This document shows positions 7,993-38,300 of a DNA stretch of 64,000 nt, piece after piece (position 1 is the first letter of the stretch; every line of letters starts with the position of its first letter). The stretch is from Bacteroidota bacterium (GTDB taxonomy: Bacteria; Bacteroidota; Bacteroidia; Chitinophagales; LD1), in contig JAPLES010000019.1 in the NCBI GenBank assembly GCA_026391075.1, positions 1-64,000 on the forward strand, read 5' to 3'. The notes beneath the pieces are model-generated. The model was given only the letters and a program-made list of their open reading frames with translations, was not told the DNA's origin and did no database searches. The translations under genes were made by a program, and so were the position numbers.

Positions 7993-8090
7993 TCGTCCAA
8001 AAATATTCTTTCGTTCACACACAATAACTCAAAACTCATTTGCGTTAAGTGATATCGCTCATTTTAATATCTCCACTTTCGCTCCTGTTT

Positions 8091-9410
8091 ATGCCTTCGC
8101 AAAATTATCTTCCACAAACGCTTAAAGGAACTGCTCTTGTTATCGCTTCGCTATTGGTGCTTGGTGTAATTCCTGAATTCGATTTAGGTAGTTTTCATTG
8201 GAAGCGCGTGAATATTCTCTCCGATATTTTTACGAAACAAAAAGCTATTGTAAAAATTGACTCATCACAAATACTGAAACCAATTTACGTTGACACTTGC
8301 AAGAAGGGCGTGCTATGTGTAGAAGATTACAGCAAAGATACCAGCGGATTAAATGTTTTTCTCTCCGCGCTTGATTCATCAAAAAAGAAATTAGTTCGCA
8401 TTGCCTGGTTTGGCGATTCGTATGTAGAGGGAGATATTCTCCTCGACCCGTTGCGTGATTCAATGCAGGCAATCTTTGGCGGAAGCGGAGTGGGTTTTGT
8501 GCCTATCACTTCCGAAGTAGCTGGCTTCCGCCAAACCATAATTCATTCGTATGATAACTGGAAAACTTTTGCAATAGTAGGCAACAGAGATGCGGAGCAT
8601 CCTCTCGGTCCTGCTGGTTTTTCTTTTGTAGGCGAAGAAGGAAATACGGTTTCTTACACTCCCGAAAAAAGAATTCGCCTCAACAATTTTCCTACTGCAA
8701 AATTATTTTACGGCAATGCAGATAGTGCAACGATAATCGTAAACGGTAATGAAATTGCTTTACCAAACGCAAAAGCAATTCATCAAAAAAACCTTGGAGA
8801 GAATCTTTCCTCATTAAAACTTTCTCTTCACGGCACAGCAGATTTATATGGTATTACCATGGAAAGCAAAACAGGAATTTGCCTGGACAATTTCTCTATG
8901 CGCGGTAATTCGGGAATAGGATTGAATTATGTGAACGAAAAAATGTTCCGCGATTTTGATTCCATTCATCCATACGATTTGATTGTGCTCAGTTACGGTT
9001 TGAATGTAGCCAACGAAAAATCTAAAAACTACGATTGGTATGTGCGCAGTATGAAACCCACTATTGCCATGATGAAGCGCGCTTTCCCTCACAGTTCTGT
9101 TTTAGTAATAGGTTGCAGTGACCGTGCCGAAAATATTGACGGTGAATTACAAACCATGCCTTCAGTAAAACGATTAATAAATGTTCAACGAAAAATGGCT
9201 GTGGATAACGAAGTTTGTTTTTGGAATTTATTTGAAGCGATGGGTGGCGACTCCACCATGATTCATTGGACAGATATGCCGAAACGCCCATTAGCAAATA
9301 AAGATTACACGCATTTAAGTTTTTACGGAGGAAGGAAAGTGGCGAACATTTTTTTACAAACGATTTTATACGAGAGAGAAAAATATGAAAGAAGGAAGAA
9401 GAGTAAATAG
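8091..9410 (+). CDS. Membrane-anchored SGNH/GDSL-like protein of an O-acylation operon
   Basis: The first of two tandem SGNH-fold proteins ahead of an MBOAT gene. The ATG at 8091 gives MPSQNYLPQTLKG followed by one hydrophobic segment (about residues 12-28), which suggests a signal anchor with the catalytic domain in the periplasm. A GTG at 8049 would add 14 residues. Block I is seen as AWFGDSYVEGD, an Asn-containing YGLNVANE, and a C-terminal DYTHLSFYGG carrying the Asp-x-x-His pair. These are the elements of SGNH acyl-transfer enzymes such as those paired with AlgI/DltB-type proteins. The probable role is moving acetyl groups onto, or off, an extracytoplasmic glycan. The substrate is unknown. 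Confidence 0.8.
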   Translation: MPSQNYLPQTLKGTALVIASLLVLGVIPEFDLGSFHWKRVNILSDIFTKQKAIVKIDSSQILKPIYVDTCKKGVLCVEDYSKDTSGLNVFLSALDSSKKKLVRIAWFGDSYVEGDILLDPLRDSMQAIFGGSGVGFVPITSEVAGFRQTIIHSYDNWKTFAIVGNRDAEHPLGPAGFSFVGEEGNTVSYTPEKRIRLNNFPTAKLFYGNADSATIIVNGNEIALPNAKAIHQKNLGENLSSLKLSLHGTADLYGITMESKTGICLDNFSMRGNSGIGLNYVNEKMFRDFDSIHPYDLIVLSYGLNVANEKSKNYDWYVRSMKPTIAMMKRAFPHSSVLVIGCSDRAENIDGELQTMPSVKRLINVQRKMAVDNEVCFWNLFEAMGGDSTMIHWTDMPKRPLANKDYTHLSFYGGRKVANIFLQTILYEREKYERRKKSK

Positions 9411-10644
9411 ACGACAGACGACAGACGACAGACGACAGAGAATTGCCCGGATTGCATTTACTGTGGTCTGCTGTCTGTGGTCTGTGGTCTGCGTTGCGCA
9501 AACGAAATATCCATTCATTCACGAAGAGCGCAATGAAATAGTTGGCGATAAAGTGCTCAATGGTTTTTTCGAAAAACTGTATCAGCAAAAAACACAGAAC
9601 AATCAACGCATCAATGTATTGCAGATTGGCGATTCGCATATTCAGGCAGATTTTCTAAGCGCGCAGGTGCGTACTAATTTTCAAAAAAATTTTGGTAATG
9701 CAGGACGAGGATTAGTAGTACCAATCAAAGTGGCGGGTAGCAACGAGCCGTTCAATTATCGTTTCACCAGCAATATAAAATGCTACGGCAAGCGTTGTGT
9801 TTACATAGGCGATTCGCTCGACTACGGCATTGGTGGTTTTGTGGTAAAGACCAGTGACGATACCGCTCAATTTCGCATTCGCACTTTCGATTATGGGGCT
9901 TTGAATTATTCGTTTCACAAAATCACTTTGTTCTATCAGCAGGATTCTTCGTACAACTTTTCGATTGAAGACACTTCAGGAAATCTTTTGGCCTCTATTC
10001 AAAAAGATTCTTCTACACGAAACGTTTCTACTACCACACTTTCTATAAACACAAACGATATTATCCTCAAAGCGCATCGCAACGATTCTTCTGAAAACAG
10101 CGCCACGCTTTACGGTTTAAATTTAGAGAACGACAGCAACGGAATTATTTATCATGCCATTGGTGTAAACGGAGCAGAGGCTTTTCAATATGTGCATGCG
10201 AAATATTTTGCCGAGCAAACACAAATGCTTCATCCCGATTTGTTGATTCTTTCTCTCGGCACCAACGAAGCCAACCGCAGACCATTCAACAAAGAACTCA
10301 CTGCTGCACGTTTAGATTCATTAGTAAAACAATTGCAGTTGTATAATCCGAATACACCAATTCTTTTGACCACTCCGCCCGATTCATACTACGGGCGCAA
10401 GTATTACAACCCCGCAGTTTCTGCTATGCACGTTATCCTCGTTGATTACAGCAAAGAACACGACTTGGCTGTATGGGATTTATTTTCCGCCAGCGGTGGG
10501 TTTAAAAGTTGTTATCAGTGGAAAAAATACAAGTTGATGCGCAAAGATGGCGTTCACTTTTCGCGCGCGGGTTATGAGTTACAGGGAAATCTTTTGTATG
10601 AAGCATTGATGAAATCTTACAACAAATATGTCAATGCGAAATAG
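9385..10644 (+). CDS. Second SGNH/GDSL-like protein, with a repeat-derived N-terminus
   Basis: This 419-residue SGNH-fold protein overlaps the end of the previous gene by 26 bases. Block I is LQIGDSHIQADF, the Asn block is LSLGTNEANRR, and the C-terminal DGVHFSRAGYE carries Asp and His. Its N-terminus is unusual. Residues 7-17 are encoded by four tandem 7-bp units (9411-9438). The hydrophobic stretch VVCCLWSVVCVAQ, which would serve as the signal peptide, is encoded by an imperfect inverted copy at 9461-9492. No other in-frame ATG precedes the mature domain, so the start at 9385 is required if this repeat is translated. The role is presumably shared with the neighbouring SGNH and MBOAT proteins in glycan O-acylation. 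Confidence 0.8.
   Translation: MKEGRRVNRRQTTDDRRQRIARIAFTVVCCLWSVVCVAQTKYPFIHEERNEIVGDKVLNGFFEKLYQQKTQNNQRINVLQIGDSHIQADFLSAQVRTNFQKNFGNAGRGLVVPIKVAGSNEPFNYRFTSNIKCYGKRCVYIGDSLDYGIGGFVVKTSDDTAQFRIRTFDYGALNYSFHKITLFYQQDSSYNFSIEDTSGNLLASIQKDSSTRNVSTTTLSINTNDIILKAHRNDSSENSATLYGLNLENDSNGIIYHAIGVNGAEAFQYVHAKYFAEQTQMLHPDLLILSLGTNEANRRPFNKELTAARLDSLVKQLQLYNPNTPILLTTPPDSYYGRKYYNPAVSAMHVILVDYSKEHDLAVWDLFSASGGFKSCYQWKKYKLMRKDGVHFSRAGYELQGNLLYEALMKSYNKYVNAK
9411..9492. repeat. AGACnnn-type 7-bp periodic repeat with inverted second arm
   Basis: Four exact tandem copies of ACGACAG occupy 9411-9438. A partly complementary run built on CTGTGGTCTG follows at 9461-9492, and 22 bases separate the arms. The pair can form an imperfect hairpin. 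Related AGACnnn arrays occur at 18471-18513 and 60768-60802. Confidence 0.8.
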
Positions 10645-10740: not shown

Positions 10741-12210
10741 ATGTCAGCGTTCGACCTCAATAAATTCTTTTACCAGTTTGCGTATCACCGCAACGAGCCG
10801 TTGATTTTCAGCACGGGATTGTTCCTGTGGATGTTCCTGTTTTTCATTGGCGGCTTTTATCTGTTGCGTAAAAAGCGCGACCCGAAACTGATTTATGTAA
10901 TTCTGTTTTCGCTGTACTTCTATTACAAAAGCAGCGGTATTTATTTTCTGCTGCTGATACTTTCTACGGTGGTGGACTACACCCTCGCCAATTTCATTTA
11001 CAACGCCAATACGCAATGGAAGAAAAAATCCTGGCTTGTTTTCAGTTTGGTGTTGAACCTCGGTCTGCTCGCTTATTTCAAATACACCAATTTCCTCTAC
11101 GAAATTTTCTGCAACCTCACCCAACATCACTTCGACCCTTTCAGTATTTTCTTACCCGTAGGTGTTTCGTTCTTTACTTTTCAATCGTTGAGTTATACAA
11201 TCGAAATTTATCGTGGCGATTTAAAAACTGTGAAGCGCATTCTTGATTATGCCTTCTTTGTTTCCTTCTTTCCGCAACTCGTGGCGGGTCCTATTGTGCG
11301 CGCTAAAGATTTTCTACCGCAAATCAGTTTGCCGACTATTGTTACACAAGCTATGTTTGGCGAAGGCGTTTTTCTTATTGCCACCGGTTTGTTTAAGAAG
11401 GCAGTTATCTCCGATTTTATTTCCATCAATTTTGTAGATAGAATTTTTGACAACCCGACACTCTACACAGGTCTCGAAAATCTTTTTGGTGTGTATGGAT
11501 ACGCGCTGCAAATCTACTGTGACTTCAGCGGCTACAGCGATATGGCTATCGGCATTGCTCTGCTCTTCGGTTTCAAACTATGTTTGAATTTCGATTCACC
11601 TTATCAAAGCAGCAGCATCACCGAGTTCTGGAGGCGCTGGCATATTTCACTATCGAGTTGGCTGCGCGACTACCTCTATATTTCATTGGGCGGAAACCGC
11701 AAAGGTCGCCTGCGAACTTACTTCAATCAGTTCCTCACGATGCTGCTCGGTGGCTTGTGGCACGGTGCTGCTTTCAAATTTATTTTGTGGGGTGCGCTAC
11801 ATGGTGTGGCGTTGGGGGTTGATAAATTCATTAAGGAGCAATTCAAAATTCCTGATACCCGCTTTTTCAAAATCGCTGGTGTGTTCATCACCTTCCACTT
11901 TGTTTGTTTTTGTTGGATACTCTTCCGTGCCGATACGATGGCACTGGCAGGCGATGTGCTTTCGCAAATTGCTTTTCACTTTACGCCCTCTGTGTTTTTC
12001 AGTTTCATGGTGGGCTACAAAAACATTCTGCTCGTCATGCTGCTTGGCTACATTCTGCATTTTATTCCTAAAAACATCGAACTCAAAACCCGCGCATGGG
12101 TAACTGCTATACCGCTGCCTGCCAAAGTAGCTTTAATGGTCGCTGTGATTGTGCTGGTGATTCAGGTAAAGAGTTCAGAGATACAACCCTTTATTTATTT
12201 TCAATTTTGA
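10741..12210 (+). CDS. MBOAT-family O-acyltransferase (AlgI/DltB-like)
   Basis: This 489-residue polytopic membrane protein has many hydrophobic segments. Family features include FFPQLVAGPIVRA (about residues 178-190), a Trp-Arg-Arg-Trp-His-rich stretch (EFWRRWHISLSSWLRDYLY) and the region around GGLWHGAAF (about 336-345) with a second conserved His in GALHGV. The C-terminus PFIYFQF is typical of AlgI-like proteins in this phylum. Such proteins carry acyl groups, usually acetyl, across the membrane to a partner SGNH acyltransferase. The two upstream SGNH proteins fit that partnership. The target glycan is not indicated by the locus. Confidence 0.93.
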   Translation: MSAFDLNKFFYQFAYHRNEPLIFSTGLFLWMFLFFIGGFYLLRKKRDPKLIYVILFSLYFYYKSSGIYFLLLILSTVVDYTLANFIYNANTQWKKKSWLVFSLVLNLGLLAYFKYTNFLYEIFCNLTQHHFDPFSIFLPVGVSFFTFQSLSYTIEIYRGDLKTVKRILDYAFFVSFFPQLVAGPIVRAKDFLPQISLPTIVTQAMFGEGVFLIATGLFKKAVISDFISINFVDRIFDNPTLYTGLENLFGVYGYALQIYCDFSGYSDMAIGIALLFGFKLCLNFDSPYQSSSITEFWRRWHISLSSWLRDYLYISLGGNRKGRLRTYFNQFLTMLLGGLWHGAAFKFILWGALHGVALGVDKFIKEQFKIPDTRFFKIAGVFITFHFVCFCWILFRADTMALAGDVLSQIAFHFTPSVFFSFMVGYKNILLVMLLGYILHFIPKNIELKTRAWVTAIPLPAKVALMVAVIVLVIQVKSSEIQPFIYFQF

Positions 12211-13855: not shown

Positions 13856-16411
13856 ATGAAGAGAAGTTTACTGGCTGCACTTTTATTTTTTTTCACTCGT
13901 GTTGTAATTGCGCAATACGTAAACGATTGGAACAACTACTTAATAGAACCAACACCTGTGAGTTGGTCTAGTCCTAGTTACCAAATCGATGTTGACTCAA
14001 TAGGCAATACCTATGTTCTTACCGGACTTAGTCAACAAATCACATCTAGAATTTGGAAGTTGAATAAATATGGTCTGCTGGAGTGGAGCAAAGAAATTTA
14101 TAGAGCCGATATTGGCGTAGGCAATCTGCTAGCTACCTCAAATGGGGTTTATTATAAAGACCTATATGGGTTAGGAAAAATTGATGCGCATGGGAATCAA
14201 CTTTGGTATGACTCATTGGGTTATCAGGCATTTGGAGAAGCCTCTGTTTCATTAGATGCATTTCAAAATGTAATTGCACTCACCGCTACTTCTTCAGGTG
14301 ATATTGTTACGGTAAGAAAATTTAACCCCGATGGAAACATCATTTATCAAACTTCTTTTGGAATAAATAATTTAATAGTTGTTCAATGCACTAGCGATAA
14401 GCACGGCAATGTTTTCTGTTCTGCTTCGGTAGATTCAATTGGTGTTTCAATCTATAAGGAAGAAATTTACAAAATAGATACGGCTGGAAATATTATTTGG
14501 AACAAAGAATTTTCGGGACCAAATTATGATTCCTATACCGGTAAAATTCAATTCGATAGTCATGAAAACTTAATCGTTCTTACACCTGGTAAAATTGACG
14601 CAATTCCGTACAACTTGATTTGCAATATTTACAAAAGAATTGACCCTGCCGGTAACACCATTAATGAGCTAGGCGGAACGCTACAAGGCGGTCACGCAAA
14701 TTTCATAGTACATGGTGACAGTATTATTTGCTTCATAGGTGGTTTGGCACGTGTAATTGATACGCTAGGGAGTCAACTTCATGCAAAATTACTATCGGCA
14801 ACCACATACACCAGAGGGATTATACCATTTGAGAATTCCTTTTTCATTTGGGCTATCGATATAGATACACCTCGATTAATTGTAACGCAATATGATTACA
14901 ACTTGCAACTCGTCAATCAAATACAACGCGATTTTACACAAGGCTATAGTGACCTAGCTATTTCAAAGCAGTACAACATTTCTGCAATGGCAAATTTTTA
15001 TCACAGTCCTGATAGTATTCCAGATTCCACTTTGGTAATTCACTTCTGTGCTGATTGTGAAACAAATATTGATGGCTATTGTTACGCTGATACAAATTTG
15101 AATTGCACCATTGACTTTCCTGAATTCAAATTTACACACCGTGCTATTCATTTACTGCCGAACAATATTTTTTCTTACACCGATGGAGATGGTAAATTTC
15201 AATTTTTACAACAAAATGGCACCTATACCATCACTGAATTATTGCCTCCTTACTGGTATCATGATTGTTGGGATACGATTACGACTACACTTGATTCCAC
15301 TCATTCAAATTCCATAGGCAACTCCTTTGGTTCTATTCCTATTCCCGGTATTCATGATAAACAAGTAGTGGTAAGTATAAGTCGCGCTATTCCCGGGTTT
15401 TTATCGCATCAAATAATTGATTTTGCAAATGTAGGTACCGAAGTAGAAAATGGTTTTGTAAGTTATACAATAGACTCCCACTTTCTCTTTCTTCAATCGA
15501 TACCGCCTTTTGATTCAGTTGATGGTCGCACACACTTTTGGAATTTTTCAAACCTTGAAGTACTCGAACACAGACATATTTTTGTAGAAGCAGTCCTTGC
15601 TACTTACACGACTTTGGATAGTTATGTTTCTTACTGTGCAACGGTAGAACCTATAGCAGGAGATACAACTCCGCAAAACAATATTGATTCTGGGAATCTA
15701 AGAGTACGCGGGTCTTTTGACCCTAACGATAAAACGTCTAAAGCCACCAACAAAAATGAAACAGGAAATCTTACCGATAGCAGTGTGCTTACATACACTA
15801 TTCGTTTTCAAAATACAGGAAATGATACTGCACATAAGGTTGTCGTTCTTGATTCGCTCGATACAGATTTAGATATTTCAACGCTGGAGGTTATTGCCTT
15901 TTCGCATTCGTATGAAATTGCGCTTTACGATAACCGTGTTTTGAAATTTACTTTCAACAATATTCTTTTGCCCGATAGCGGAGCCAATCAATTACTCAGC
16001 AACGGATTTATTGTTTACACCATTCACCCAAAGAAAAATCTTTTGCCCGGCACGCAGATTGATAACACTGCCGCTATTTATTTCGACTACAACGCAGGTG
16101 TACGCACCAACACCGTTTCTGATTGGGTGGAATTAAACCCAACAAGCATTTTTAAAATTCAGGATAAAGAACAACTACATCTTTTCTTATTCCCGAATCC
16201 ATCAAACAACATCGTAAACGTAATTGCAGATGAAAGCATGACGGGAAGTTCATTGAACGTTTATGACATAACCGGAAGAAAAATGTTGACGGCTCAACTC
16301 AGACTAACTAAAACACAACTCGCAACTTCTTCCTTTGCAAACGGTGTGTATTTAGTAAGTGTAGAAAATGAAAAAGGAAAAACTACAAGGAGGTTAGTAA
16401 TTCAGCATTAG
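13856..16411 (+). CDS. Type IX-secreted protein with DUF7619-like domain and type A sorting tail
   Basis: An 851-residue protein. The signal peptide ends near residue 19 (VVIAQ). Residues 40-400 form short beta-propeller-like repeats with DSIGN, DAHGN and DTAGN turns. A Cys-bearing region follows (CADCETNIDGYCYADTN, about 400-430). Next is the domain with the landmark SFDPNDKTSKA and YTIRFQNTGNDTA (about 620-760) common in Bacteroidota surface proteins. The last 75 residues are a type A sorting domain (LFPNPSNNIVNV, NVYDITGRK, FANGVYLVSV). It should be exported by Sec, then cleaved and anchored or released by type IX secretion. A TAGTTTTA sequence lies 4 bases before the ATG. A hairpin follows the stop. 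Function is unknown. Confidence 0.87.
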   Translation: MKRSLLAALLFFFTRVVIAQYVNDWNNYLIEPTPVSWSSPSYQIDVDSIGNTYVLTGLSQQITSRIWKLNKYGLLEWSKEIYRADIGVGNLLATSNGVYYKDLYGLGKIDAHGNQLWYDSLGYQAFGEASVSLDAFQNVIALTATSSGDIVTVRKFNPDGNIIYQTSFGINNLIVVQCTSDKHGNVFCSASVDSIGVSIYKEEIYKIDTAGNIIWNKEFSGPNYDSYTGKIQFDSHENLIVLTPGKIDAIPYNLICNIYKRIDPAGNTINELGGTLQGGHANFIVHGDSIICFIGGLARVIDTLGSQLHAKLLSATTYTRGIIPFENSFFIWAIDIDTPRLIVTQYDYNLQLVNQIQRDFTQGYSDLAISKQYNISAMANFYHSPDSIPDSTLVIHFCADCETNIDGYCYADTNLNCTIDFPEFKFTHRAIHLLPNNIFSYTDGDGKFQFLQQNGTYTITELLPPYWYHDCWDTITTTLDSTHSNSIGNSFGSIPIPGIHDKQVVVSISRAIPGFLSHQIIDFANVGTEVENGFVSYTIDSHFLFLQSIPPFDSVDGRTHFWNFSNLEVLEHRHIFVEAVLATYTTLDSYVSYCATVEPIAGDTTPQNNIDSGNLRVRGSFDPNDKTSKATNKNETGNLTDSSVLTYTIRFQNTGNDTAHKVVVLDSLDTDLDISTLEVIAFSHSYEIALYDNRVLKFTFNNILLPDSGANQLLSNGFIVYTIHPKKNLLPGTQIDNTAAIYFDYNAGVRTNTVSDWVELNPTSIFKIQDKEQLHLFLFPNPSNNIVNVIADESMTGSSLNVYDITGRKMLTAQLRLTKTQLATSSFANGVYLVSVENEKGKTTRRLVIQH

Positions 16412-17087: not shown

Positions 17088-20000
17088 TTAACCAACAAAT
17101 CTTCTTATCAACTGCATAGGTTTTTGCATTTGCCACTTCAAGGTGAACGTAAATTTCTGATACCATTTGGTAATGCCCATCACCTTTTGATTTTCGGAAA
17201 TGTTTTTGGTGGTAACGAGCGGCAAGTGAATCTCCACCATATCTTTAATCAACACTAAACTCAAACCTACTTCGGCAGCCAGTTCTGCTTTCTTCAAATC
17301 GTTAAGCACCAGTGCTATGTTGGCGAATGGCTGAACGGGAAAGAAACGATGGGTGGTTGAAGTAATGTTGAGTGAAGTCAAAAATTTATTGGTTGCGCCA
17401 AAGGTGGTGAGTGAGCGAAAGGCTCCATCGGTCTTAGCAATTTGCCGTCCTAAAATATTATTGCGTCCGTTGCGGTCGAGGTAGTTTTCATCGAGCATGT
17501 AATCTTTTTGTAACCAGTATGCAAAGGTGTTGGTGGTGCCATTGCTCAAATAAAATTTAGGATTAGGCGCAGAAATATCATTTGACGGTTTTGAGTTGAT
17601 AATAAATCCACCTGCAAAAATGCGAACAGACAGACCTTCGTTTTTCTTTTTGTAGCTGATGGTAAAGTTGACTTCGGCAGAAAGATTCACAAACGAATTT
17701 CCTTCGCGCAAAGTCGCCTGCACATTAAACGGATTGCGTGTGGTGTTTCCTTCCACACGATACTTTATTTCGTTCACGAAATATTTTTGCGCTTCTTTTT
17801 TTCCGTTGTCAAAACGAATCCAGTCCACCCAGGCAATTACACTGCGCATATTAAGCGAGTGCGTAAATGGCGAACGCGGGTCGCGCTTTTTAAATTCCAC
17901 ATTAATGTAAGGTTCAATTTTGTTGAACATTAAATTTCGCGGTTCGCTCAAATACGAAAAACGTTTACCTGCCACACCAACCGTGATGCGCTGCATGTTG
18001 TTATCAGGATAAAAATTGTAACTCAATCTACCGAAACCGATAAATTGTTTTGACCCCGTGCCGAATGCAGGCACTAAGAGATAATTGAATTTGCGCTTTG
18101 GAATCAACGTGTTATAGAACGCCAAACCAATCTGAAACTTGTCGTAGTAATTACCACCGATATAAGGCGCAAAGAAAACCTGTGTGCGGTTTTGATTTTC
18201 TACAGAGCCTAGAAACTGAAAGCGAAGTTTTTCAAAATGATGTGCGGCTTTGTTCAGTTTGTAAGTATTGTTCCTTCTATTGATTTCAGGAATTTCCATC
18301 AGCGGGTCTATCTGAACTTTATCTCCGCCATCTGTATTTACTTCAATATTTTTCTTCCCCTCAAAACCATCTACCCAAATTGTTCTGAGAATGGAATCGT
18401 GTTTTAAAACAGAAACAGAAACGGGAGAATTTATTTCACCAATGTTTGATAGAGAAACAAATTTTGTATTTCTATCGTCTATAGTCTTTTGTCTATGGTC
18501 TATTCTGTAATCCACCTGCTTCTTCGTATTAATCAAATCATCAAAAAACCAACTGAGGTTTTTTCCTGTTTCGGTTTCAAACACATTGCGAATATCTTCC
18601 GGCTGCGGATGTTTGTATTGCCATGTTTCAAAATATTTTTTCATCACTTTGTCAAAAACTTCTGTGCCCAAGTAAGCTTCAAGATAACTGAAGATTAACA
18701 TGCTCTTTCCATACACCATTACACCATAATTAAAGTCCGTGAACTTTGAAGATGTTTGTTCCAATGCCTGGTCGTAGTTTTCACGCGCTTGAAACTGATA
18801 GCCCAAATCGTATAAATATTTGTGGCGATATTGATTTACATCAAATGCTTTTCCAATACCGTTTGAAATTCTACTCATCACTTTTTGATTAGGGTATTTA
18901 GTGCGGATGTATCGTTCTTCATAATAAGAATTGATGCCTTCGTCCATCCACGCATGGTCGCGCTCATTACTGCCGAGCATGCCATAAAACCAATTATGCC
19001 CCACCTCATGCGTAATCACATCATCCAATTCAAAAGCATTTCGCGATTCTCCAATTACGGTAACATTGGGATATTCCATTCCCCCACCCGCACTCAATGC
19101 ACCATCAATTGCTGTCACCTGCGCGTAAGGATATTCACCAATCCACTGACTGTAATAAAATATTGCCTCATGCAAATACTCGGGAGCTTTGCTCCACAAC
19201 TTCGCCTGATTATCGGTAAACAAACTCCAGGTGATTACTTTTTTCTTTGAGTACGGCAATTCCACTTCTCCCTTCAATACACGAAAACGTTTATCAGCAA
19301 ACCAACCGAAATCGTGAATGTTGGTTTGCTTGTAGTGAAGTGTTTTAGTTTCTTTTGAAGAAGCCGGAAATTTTTGATTCGGATTATCTACAAAGGTTAC
19401 AATTTTCTTCGTTGCCTCTGAAAGTGAATCGAGCCATTTCTTTTCATCTTCATTTTGCAAATCTCCTGTGGCACCAACCACATAATTCTTAGGCAAGGTT
19501 ATACTCACATCGAACGAACCGAACTCGCTGTAAAATTCTCCCTGGTCTAAATATGGAATAGGATGCCAGCCTGTTTTGTCAAACACCGCAGGCTTCGGGT
19601 ACCATTGCGAAATCTGATAGCTCTGACCAATATGCCCAAGGCGCGAAAATGTTTCGGGCAGCTTTACACGAAACGGAGTGGTGATGCGAACGCTCTCTCC
19701 CGTTTTTAGCGGAGCATTCAAATTCAGTTTTGCAATTTCAAGCGAAGCAGAATCATAATCCCATTTACACGCTTCTGCATTTGTTTTAAAATCTAAGTGG
19801 TCAATAAATCCACGTTGCTCAGGTTTGCTGAAGTAGAAATCCGTTTGACCATTTTCAAAAAGCTGTTTCGCAAACGGTGTGGTTTGGTCGCGGTATGCAT
19901 TAGGCCACAGGTGAAATAAAATATAGTCAAGGGTCTGCGGAGAATTATTTTTGTAATCAATAGTGATAAAACCATCGAGCGAATGAAGTGTATCGTTGAG

Positions 20001-20099
20001 CGTTACTTCAATTTTGTAATCAGTTTGCTGCTGGAAATACACTTGTGAAGAAGCAACAAGTGAGGAGATGATAAGTAAAAGCGCGAAGAGATGTTTCAT
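17088..20099 (-). CDS. Exported M1-family zinc metallopeptidase (aminopeptidase N-like)
   Basis: A 1003-residue protein with a Sec signal peptide of about 18 residues. The M1 fold shows an exopeptidase-type GGGMEYPN, the zinc motif HEVGH at about residues 364-368 and the third ligand Glu in MDEGIN about 19 residues later. The catalytic part ends near residue 530. The remaining 470 residues are a beta-rich C-terminal region of unassigned function that resembles outer-membrane-type strands. It probably degrades peptides in the periplasm or at the cell surface. Residues around RIDHRQKTIDDRN, near the end of the catalytic part, are encoded by an AGACnnn repeat (18471-18513), so they are likely an acquired insert. 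A TATTTTCG element lies 18 bases before the ATG. Confidence 0.92.
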   Translation of the reverse strand: MKHLFALLLIISSLVASSQVYFQQQTDYKIEVTLNDTLHSLDGFITIDYKNNSPQTLDYILFHLWPNAYRDQTTPFAKQLFENGQTDFYFSKPEQRGFIDHLDFKTNAEACKWDYDSASLEIAKLNLNAPLKTGESVRITTPFRVKLPETFSRLGHIGQSYQISQWYPKPAVFDKTGWHPIPYLDQGEFYSEFGSFDVSITLPKNYVVGATGDLQNEDEKKWLDSLSEATKKIVTFVDNPNQKFPASSKETKTLHYKQTNIHDFGWFADKRFRVLKGEVELPYSKKKVITWSLFTDNQAKLWSKAPEYLHEAIFYYSQWIGEYPYAQVTAIDGALSAGGGMEYPNVTVIGESRNAFELDDVITHEVGHNWFYGMLGSNERDHAWMDEGINSYYEERYIRTKYPNQKVMSRISNGIGKAFDVNQYRHKYLYDLGYQFQARENYDQALEQTSSKFTDFNYGVMVYGKSMLIFSYLEAYLGTEVFDKVMKKYFETWQYKHPQPEDIRNVFETETGKNLSWFFDDLINTKKQVDYRIDHRQKTIDDRNTKFVSLSNIGEINSPVSVSVLKHDSILRTIWVDGFEGKKNIEVNTDGGDKVQIDPLMEIPEINRRNNTYKLNKAAHHFEKLRFQFLGSVENQNRTQVFFAPYIGGNYYDKFQIGLAFYNTLIPKRKFNYLLVPAFGTGSKQFIGFGRLSYNFYPDNNMQRITVGVAGKRFSYLSEPRNLMFNKIEPYINVEFKKRDPRSPFTHSLNMRSVIAWVDWIRFDNGKKEAQKYFVNEIKYRVEGNTTRNPFNVQATLREGNSFVNLSAEVNFTISYKKKNEGLSVRIFAGGFIINSKPSNDISAPNPKFYLSNGTTNTFAYWLQKDYMLDENYLDRNGRNNILGRQIAKTDGAFRSLTTFGATNKFLTSLNITSTTHRFFPVQPFANIALVLNDLKKAELAAEVGLSLVLIKDMVEIHLPLVTTKNISENQKVMGITKWYQKFTFTLKWQMQKPMQLIRRFVG
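18471..18513 (-). repeat. AGACnnn 7-bp periodic repeat inside the M1 peptidase gene
   Basis: On the minus strand the units AGACCAT, AGACAAA, AGACTAT and AGACGAT follow one another with a strict 7-base period. They stay in frame with the peptidase and encode RIDHRQKTIDDRN. Confidence 0.75.
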
Positions 20100-35300: not shown

Positions 35301-38300
35301 GTAACTGTAATTACAACTGTACTTGTAGCTGCTAAACAAGGACCCACGCCATCAGGATCATTCGTGGTTAACGTTAGCGTTACGTTACCTGATGTAATGG
35401 AAGGAGAATAAGTTGAAGTAAGGGAACTCGCATTAGAGAATGTTCCGGTTGGCGCACTCCACGTTGAACTTGTCGCACTTCCACCAATGCTACCGGCTAG
35501 TGTAACGGTTCCGTTTTGACAAACTGTTTGCGTACTTCCTGCATTTGCAGTAGCAGCCTGATTTACTGTTATTACAACCGTACTCACAGTTGCCGAACAT
35601 GGTCCAGCTCCATCCGGATCATTCGTAGTTAAGGTAAGTGTTACCGTTCCCGAAGTAATAGATGGGGTGTACGTTGAACCCAGAGAATTCACATCCGAAA
35701 AAGTTCCGCTTGGTGCGCTCCATGTTGACGAAACAGCACTTCCTCCAATTGTTCCCGATAAAGTAATTGTACTTCCTTGACAGGTTGTTTGGGGAACTCC
35801 TGCACTAGCAATAGCTGCAAGGTTCACAGTTATTACCACAATACTTGAAACTGCAGAACATGGTCCTGCGCCATCCGGGTCATTTGTAGTTAAGGTAAGT
35901 GTTACCGTTCCCGAAGAAATAGAAGGAGTATAAGTTGAAGTAAGTGAAGAAGCGTTTGAAAAACTTCCTGTTCCTGCACTCCATGTTGAACTCGTTGCAC
36001 TACCACCAATACTTCCTGTAAGGGTTATTGTTCCTCCACCACATACTGTTTGTGCACTTCCTGCACTCACTGTTGGTGCTTGATTTACGGTAATAACAAT
36101 TGTACTAATTGCAGCTGAACAAGGACCAACTCCATCAGGATCGTTTGTAGTTAATGTAAGCGTAACTGTTCCTGAAGAAATAGATGGTGTATAAGTTGAA
36201 GTAAGTGAACTTGCTAACGAGAAAGTTCCGCTTGGTGCAGTCCATGTAGATGAAGTTGCGCTTCCGCCAATGCTTCCTGCTAAAGTAACTGAACCTCCCT
36301 GACAAACTGTTTGCGCAAATCCAGCACTAGCTGTTGCCGCTAGATTCACTGTAATAACTACGGTACTTGAAACTGCAGAACACGGTCCCGCACCATCGGG
36401 GTCATTTGTAGTTAAAGTAAGTGTTACCGTTCCTGAAGAAATAGAAGGAGTATAAGTTGATGTAAGTGAAGAAGCGTTTGAAAAACTTCCTGTTCCTGCG
36501 CTCCATGTTGAACTTGTTGCACTTCCACCTCTAGTTCCTGCAAGCGTTACTGTGCCTCCGCCACAAACTGTTTGTGCACTTCCTGCACTCACTGTTGGTG
36601 CTAGGTTTACGGTAATAACAACTGTACTGGTTGCTGCAGAACAAGGACCTGCACCATCGGGGTCGTTTGTGGTTAACGTTAGTGTTACTGTGCCTGAAGT
36701 TATGCTGGGAGTATAAGTCGAAGTAAGTGAACTTGCTAATGAAAAAGTACCGCTTGGTGCAGTCCATGTAGATGAAGTTGCGCTTCCGCCAATACTTCCA
36801 GCTAAAGTAACTGAACCGCCTTGACAAACCGTTTGAGCAAAACCTGCATTGGCAGTAGCAGCAGCATTAACAGTAATAACCACTGTACTGGTAGCGGCCG
36901 AACATGGACCCGCTCCATCAGGGTCATTCGTAGTTAAGGTGAGCGTTACAGTTCCTGAAGATATAGAAGGGGTATACGTTGATGTGAGCGAAGAAGCATT
37001 TGAGAAACTTCCTGTACCCGAACTCCACGTTGATGAAGTTGCACTACCACCAATTATTCCAGCTAAAGTTACGGTTCCTCCCGCACAAACTGTTTGTGCA
37101 GTTCCAGCATTCGCAGTTGCCGCTTGGTTATTGGTAAGCACTACAGTACTGGTTGAATTTGTACACGGACCTCCAGTTGAAACTGTCCAAGTGAGCGTAG
37201 CACTAGTTCCAGCCGGAACACCGGTTATTGTTGAAGTTGCCGAATTGGGTGAAGTAATAGTTGCTGTTCCGCTCGTAAGTGTCCAGGTGCCTGTACCAAC
37301 AGACGGAGGGGTAGCAGCCATTGTAAACGTGCCATTGTTACACTGAGTTTGAGCCGATCCTGCAACTGAAGTAGAAGGAACTCCGTAAGCAGTAAATGAA
37401 GTAGTAAAACTACAAGCGCCTAACGTAGCACCTAAGGTTACTAATTGGCTACTTCCCGAAACTCCCAATGCCGTATAAACAACTCCTGAAATGGAACCCG
37501 GACCGGAAACAACTGACCAATTAAACGCGGGAGCGCCAGAAAAAGTGCCGCCATAAGTTACCGCTAAATTGCGAGTAGAACCATCTCCACAAATACTTGC
37601 AGTACTGGTAGCATTTGTAATAGTAGTGTTTTGTCGAACTTCAAGTAATGCAGAAGTACCAGGCCAAACTGAACCGCAAGCAAAGCGGTCAACCATTACT
37701 TTTACAGTACCTGTGAAATAAGCCGTCCAATCAAGCGATGCACGAGTAGTTGCGCAAACAGAACCATTATCATCATTGTAAAAAGTACCCCCTGCTGTTG
37801 GTGCCGTTTGACCAGAAGCAATAAAATTGTTTCCCGCATCGTAACCCGAAATTTCCGAATCCCATCCTGAAGCACAGGTAGAAACCGAATAATTTACTCC
37901 TGTAACCGCAGTAAAAGAGGCATAGGCTGTAGAAGGAATACTCAACTGTCCGCCAAAGCCATTGCAACCTGGGGTTACGTTACCTGCACTTGAACCTGTC
38001 AATGGACATGGTGGACCTATTGGTGGCGGTGGTGGTGGTGGTGCGGTTGCTGTAACATACATTGGCATACAGGTAGTATTCGAAATACAATTGTATTGGT
38101 CAATCAATACATTCATGGTGCCGCTATAACCAGCAGTAACTTGTAAACTTGAAGATAACCCGTTAGTGCCGCAAGCATCATCATTGTATCCTAACACAGT
38201 AGTTCCTGCAGCGTTATAAACCGTAATTTGAGAATCGAAAGCTGTAGACGAACAAGTAGAAAAAGTGTACGTACCACCTGCAACAACGGTCAATGTCATT

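Follow-up and report, generated by a model that had tools for sequence, protein, structure and literature searches.

The second SGNH gene and its N-terminus

The window analysed here is a 64,000-nucleotide stretch of DNA from a 3.6-Mb genome in 91 contigs. The nearest isolate that we found is Chryseosolibacter indicus, at 42% identity; those of its close relatives that could be named are uncultured Bacteroidetes MAGs. The window contains a pair of SGNH-type genes with an MBOAT gene beside them, suggesting a polysaccharide O-acylation cluster (Table 1). Because the 3' end of the upstream SGNH-like gene overlaps there, we placed the start of the second gene at ATG 9385; the overlap is kept in sister species. 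The N-terminus translated from this ATG, MKEGRRVN-RRQTTDDRRQ-RIARIAFT-VVCCLWSVVC-VAQTKYPF, fits a type I Sec layout of the Q-rule kind, with a basic n-region, a hydrophobic h-region, and cleavage between VA and Q, and the sister species show this layout too. Its VCVA-Q end matches the Bacteroidetes Q-rule for signal peptides (PMC10653852). We consider this N-terminus a putative export signal, from which we infer export of the protein.

Table 1. Positions of genes and repeat features in the window
Feature	Position	Strand	Basis or remark
Upstream SGNH-like gene	8049..9410	+	3' end overlaps start of second SGNH gene
SGNH/GDSL hydrolase gene, second of pair, putative signal peptide repeat-encoded	9385..10644	+	ORF; Pfam Lipase_GDSL_2, E=2.4e-14
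Predicted signal peptide, 38 aa, predicted cleavage between VCVA and Q (Q-rule)	9385..9498	+	Translation; length and AQ end kept in double-array sister species; PMC10653852
Left A-rich heptamer array (AGACGAC)4.4, n-region RRQTTDDRRQ	9409..9439	+	TRF, 100% match
Core between arms, includes GGATTGCATTT	9440..9465	+	Motif found beside other GTCT arrays of the genome too
Right T-rich array GTCTNNN, hydrophobic h-region VVCCLWSVVC	9466..9491	+	Mean Kyte-Doolittle 2.46
Downstream MBOAT O-acyltransferase gene	10741..12210	+	Pfam MBOAT, E=4.2e-29
Heptamer array AGACNAN in M1-peptidase-like gene (17088-20099, minus strand)	18471..18503	-	Site with other units in G010 and G015

The first-pass annotation had derived this N-terminus from a 7-bp array and its inverted partner, and we recovered both. 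The left array is the sole period-7 array that TRF reports within the window, and the inverted arm is spelled GTCTGCT-GTCTGTG-GTCTGTG-GTCTG; at the best register, the two arms are 89% Watson-Crick complementary. The annotation had also read the whole hydrophobic stretch as the translation of the inverted arm, which holds for VVCCLWSVVC, the only arm-encoded part, and not for the residues VAQ, which lie outside the repeat. The 5' coding RNA (positions 9385 to 9500) folds into a hairpin of -49.8 kcal/mol, which might slow translation; this pairing is absent in the sister species G004, G010, and G015.

If the true start lay downstream, the array would be an untranslated leader, and GTG codons do occur within the right arm. 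However, ATG 9385 is the only in-frame start that keeps a basic n-region, it is retained in G004, G010, G017, G001, and G016, and the frame and absence of stops are kept although the arrays changed. We consider a downstream start highly unlikely.

A 7-bp unit is not divisible by 3, and a heptamer array therefore encodes one and the same seven-residue cycle in every frame; AGACGAC gives RRQTTDD, and GTGGTCT gives VVCGLWS. An A-rich arm encodes a hydrophilic, often basic peptide and a T-rich arm a hydrophobic one, whichever frame is used, and a palindrome of the two therefore reads as an n-region plus an h-region.

Period-7 arrays across the genome

The repeat had been described as dispersed, and a search elsewhere in the genome confirmed this. 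In sampled stretches of the source genome (G000) totalling 853,693 b, on which all genome statistics rest, 47 period-7 arrays scored at least 12, along with 35 at the harmonic period 14 and 0 to 7 at other periods from 4 to 13. Markov-shuffled sequence (464 kb) gave no arrays at a score of at least 14, versus 23 in the real sequence. The dominance of period 7 and the shuffle result together show that the SGNH array is not a chance product, and they exclude an ordinary composition effect. With a 7-bp tandem period beyond chance, the arrays qualify as heptanucleotide long SSRs.

Open genes contain 34 of the 47 arrays, in many different units. The first 45 codons hold 12 of these 34 (11% expected; P=2e-4), and 7 of the 34 overlap signal-peptide h-regions (1.9% expected, about 11-fold; P=3e-6), figures that serve as guides, as hydrophobicity was judged by a crude rule, ORFs were called simply, and array thresholds were set by eye. 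The h-region arrays were all read on the GTCT strand (7/7), and the n-region and internal linker arrays of that family on the AGAC strand. This bias is the pattern expected from selection on the protein. Linkers with arrays were found in genes that, from their sequences, we take to be PrmC and leucyl-tRNA synthetase (LeuRS) and in what are presumably C-terminal secretion-domain linkers; other arrays encode N-termini such as MKKNVIVLSIVYCLLSIVYSC, MRKLALVYCLLSIVFYLFAQ, MKIAFALSIVFGLWSMVSAFS, and MKRAQQ...LVLSVVCCLFSMVCFSQ. A few unit families recur at many loci of the genome. The best other genomic copy of the second SGNH repeat matches it at 76% over about 83 bp, and copies share only the period and short motifs. 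The pattern is that of a genome-wide 7-bp repeat process filtered by selection, with products that survive in signal peptides and linkers.

Several further repeats were observed. A PaaD/SufT-like gene (L073, about 18900-19050) carries two different arrays, AGACNAN at the N terminus and ACTTCAG internally. At the start of a CaiB-like gene (L031, about 1490-1582), the unit changes along the array from AGACAAC to AGAGAAC and then AGAAAAC, a gradation that suggests copying in steps, with mutation. Positions 35307-37100 of the window hold 6.9 copies of a 261-bp tandem repeat, which probably encode a series of repeated domains in a protein.

Different units at the same sites in sister species

We compared the N-termini of orthologues of the second SGNH protein. 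Five sister species lack the same residues yet have different heptamer pairs in place: left CAGTTTG and right GTCTTGT in G004, left CGGTTTA and an eroded GTCTTGT-like right array in G010, AAGTCCG and GTCTATT in G015, GACGATT and GTCTATG in G017, and GGCTGAC and GTCTGTT in G001. In G016 there is a CTTGTGT-like array on the right and none on the left; in G012 the left-hand units are GTTTACG-like. The consensus sequences of all array-bearing orthologues keep the frame open despite the changed units. The double-array peptides have 36 to 38 residues before the Gln, the AQ end is kept, and G015 has a new ATG slightly downstream.

These data bear on phase variation, in which a heptamer slip would shift the frame and turn the secreted protein on or off, as in Neisseria opa. 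Such a switch would fit the near-perfect array, its unit length not divisible by 3, and its place at the 5' end of a gene whose product probably acts at the surface; the opa repeats also lie in a leader-peptide region (PMC3960869). However, every array-bearing orthologue seen is in frame, as judged from consensus sequences, and similar arrays occur in the housekeeping genes LeuRS and PrmC. We regard phase variation as unlikely.

The more distant orthologues in G006, G008, and G005 have ordinary signal peptides, which indicates that the repeat replaced an export signal and did not create one; the first-pass annotation had allowed either. In a four-gene tree, (G010,(G004,(G000,G015))), the G000-G015 grouping has support of 87/82 and the two nodes above it 100/100. 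G000 and G004 share 96% protein identity, and the mature SGNH proteins of the closest species are about 90% identical. The left arrays of G004 and G010 are in phase and look homologous, so, given this tree, those of G000 and G015 are most likely replacements. Sequence comparison thus supports replacement of the export signal of the second SGNH gene by the repeat, more than once.

Other sites behave similarly. Alignment of an EnvC-like gene from seven species gave AAAATCA/AAGTTCA, AAGTCCG, AATTACA, AATTTTA (weak), AAAGTTC, AATTTTC, and GAAATAC, five to seven units at one site. The M1-peptidase linker has AGACNAN in G000, AATTACA in G015, and AAAGTTC in G010. Among 32 orthologue pairs from G000 and G015, most array sites are common to both genomes with differing units; the exceptions are an identical array in a 768-aa protein, one low-scoring A-rich run that also matches, and a RecN array present only in G015.

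A PorG-like gene (L092, 1684-2568, minus strand; orthologues L165-L178) has an array-type signal peptide in G000 and G017 and an ordinary one, MKK.SPYCL.LL, in G004 and G015, so that the two types cut across the species tree. G050, which belongs to a different family of the order, has two same-sense GTCTTGT arrays in a signal-peptide region (L226, about 15900-16110). Genic arrays are not universal: G056 gave 461 pattern matches, of which the five distinct arrays inspected after aggressive de-duplication are intergenic, and G025, from a related genus, had no heptamer arrays in 60 kb.

Paired arrays, their possible origin, and related systems

Opposed arrays less than 50 bp apart were A-rich then T-rich in 15 cases and the reverse in none, including all five intergenic pairs, which form complementary hairpins; seven other neighbouring pairs are same-sense. 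Outside signal peptides, each of the six pairs that we tested is complementary. Together with the fold over the first 116 nt in G000, this could point to an RNA-level element, with the arm hairpin controlling translation or termination and the signal peptide incidental. However, the arms at the SGNH site pair strongly in G000, are also complementary in G017 and G001, and are not complementary in G004, G010, and G015, which rejects a conserved RNA hairpin there, and the arms of the EnvC-like orthologues tested are also not complementary, with the n- and h-region character kept at both genes. Because arm pairs at signal-peptide sites are so often noncomplementary, it appears from these alignments that the protein, not the RNA, is what is kept there. 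We consider an RNA-level element quite improbable.

Short words recur at the array junctions. AACAGCCG lies directly 3' of arrays in 4 of its 8 sampled copies in G015 (0.02 expected) and in 3 of 47 in G000 (0.11 expected) and was not found at this junction in the G017, G004, and G010 samples; TGCATTT lies upstream of 4 of 28 GTCT arrays in the genome (0.21 expected). Both words were chosen post hoc in few genomes and were missing from other samples, so a defined mobile element behind the arrays is a suggestion, not a result. A single conserved element was rejected: within the G000 sample, the full core AACAGCCGGATTTGYATTT (at most 4 mismatches) adjoins arrays in just two places, and when the genome was searched with a similar pattern, there were 67 matches versus 26 for the control, mostly unrelated.

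Pure local slippage in 7-nt steps would let arrays arise anywhere, with signal peptides and linkers merely tolerating them and no copying between loci. In most bacterial genomes, heptanucleotides outnumber the other long simple repeats, for which slippage is the explanation offered, according to the part of Mrazek (2007) related in PMC4679880. The arrays in the LeuRS, PrmC, and M1-peptidase linkers look merely tolerated, and the units of G010 and G004 have drifted in phase. The recurrence of the same few unit families at many loci, the words AACAGCCG and TGCATTT beside arrays, and the consistent A-then-T pairing argue against slippage alone, to which we give somewhat less than an even chance.

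Our own explanation starts from the short 7-bp arrays found dispersed in this genome and in those of its close relatives, frequently as an imperfect palindrome in which a loop of some 20-30 bp separates an A-rich array from a T-rich one. We propose that, where a pair of this kind opens the gene of a secreted protein, it reads as an n-region plus an h-region, and that selection retains pairs that keep the frame, are free of stops, and leave a cleavage site that can be used. Array turnover would be fast, through slippage and homogenisation within arrays plus replacement of whole arrays by another unit family, and the SGNH export signal would have been rewritten repeatedly, with the mature proteins of the closest species still about 90% identical. 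That heptamer arrays rewrite export signals under selection, with fast unit turnover, we think probable. The arrays themselves, their frame, their dispersal, and the survival of sites whose units differ are directly observed; the mechanism by which units are replaced or exchanged we infer from these patterns. A palindromic origin is not visible everywhere, with uncomplementary SGNH arms in three species and some same-sense pairs, and independent gains that recurred at a tolerant site could account for the family switch. A further, doubtful step would be a previously undescribed, dispersed element of palindromic form (A-rich heptamers, then a loop that often starts with AACAGCCG, then T-rich heptamers) that is copied around, with arrays swapped wholesale at fixed sites; as either orientation reads hydrophilic then hydrophobic, it would supply export signals ready-made.

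The likeness to Rickettsia palindromic elements (RPEs) that was first remarked on holds for the palindromic form, the dispersal, and the in-frame presence within unrelated protein genes, seen here for 34 of 47 arrays. It fails for the long conserved sequence: an RPE spans about 150 bp and encodes a conserved peptide (PMC10969869), whereas the elements here are about 85 bp, built of heptamers without a conserved unit sequence, and used as signal peptides. The CTCTT repeat of Neisseria opa is likewise tandem, with a unit that is not a multiple of 3, in a leader-peptide coding region (PMC3960869), but there one fixed unit switches frame, and here many units keep the frame in many unrelated genes and encode both n- and h-regions. 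The TAACTGA repeats of Beggiatoaceae and GGGNATC repeats of Xanthomonas and Nostoc share the 7-bp unit, the dispersal, and the patchy taxonomic distribution but lie mainly between genes and use one or few units (PMC4679880, PMC4692102), in contrast to the mostly genic arrays here, with many units that switch at fixed sites. Tandem repeats in Borg ORFs are also fast-evolving, independently formed, and A-enriched, and encode protein segments, often of extracellular proteins (PMC9879509); those mostly form disordered regions and are carried by extrachromosomal elements, whereas these form signal peptides and linkers of chromosomal genes. Among open-access papers, our searches turned up no description of sister species in which different heptamers have rewritten a signal peptide.

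The sequences of signal peptides are highly variable, and it is seldom visible where this variation comes from; here, repetitive DNA appears to be the raw material. One site in sister species shows successive rewrites, which makes export-signal replacement directly testable. These results raise the question of why 7-bp arrays accumulate in these uncultured Bacteroidota genomes and how their units exchange.
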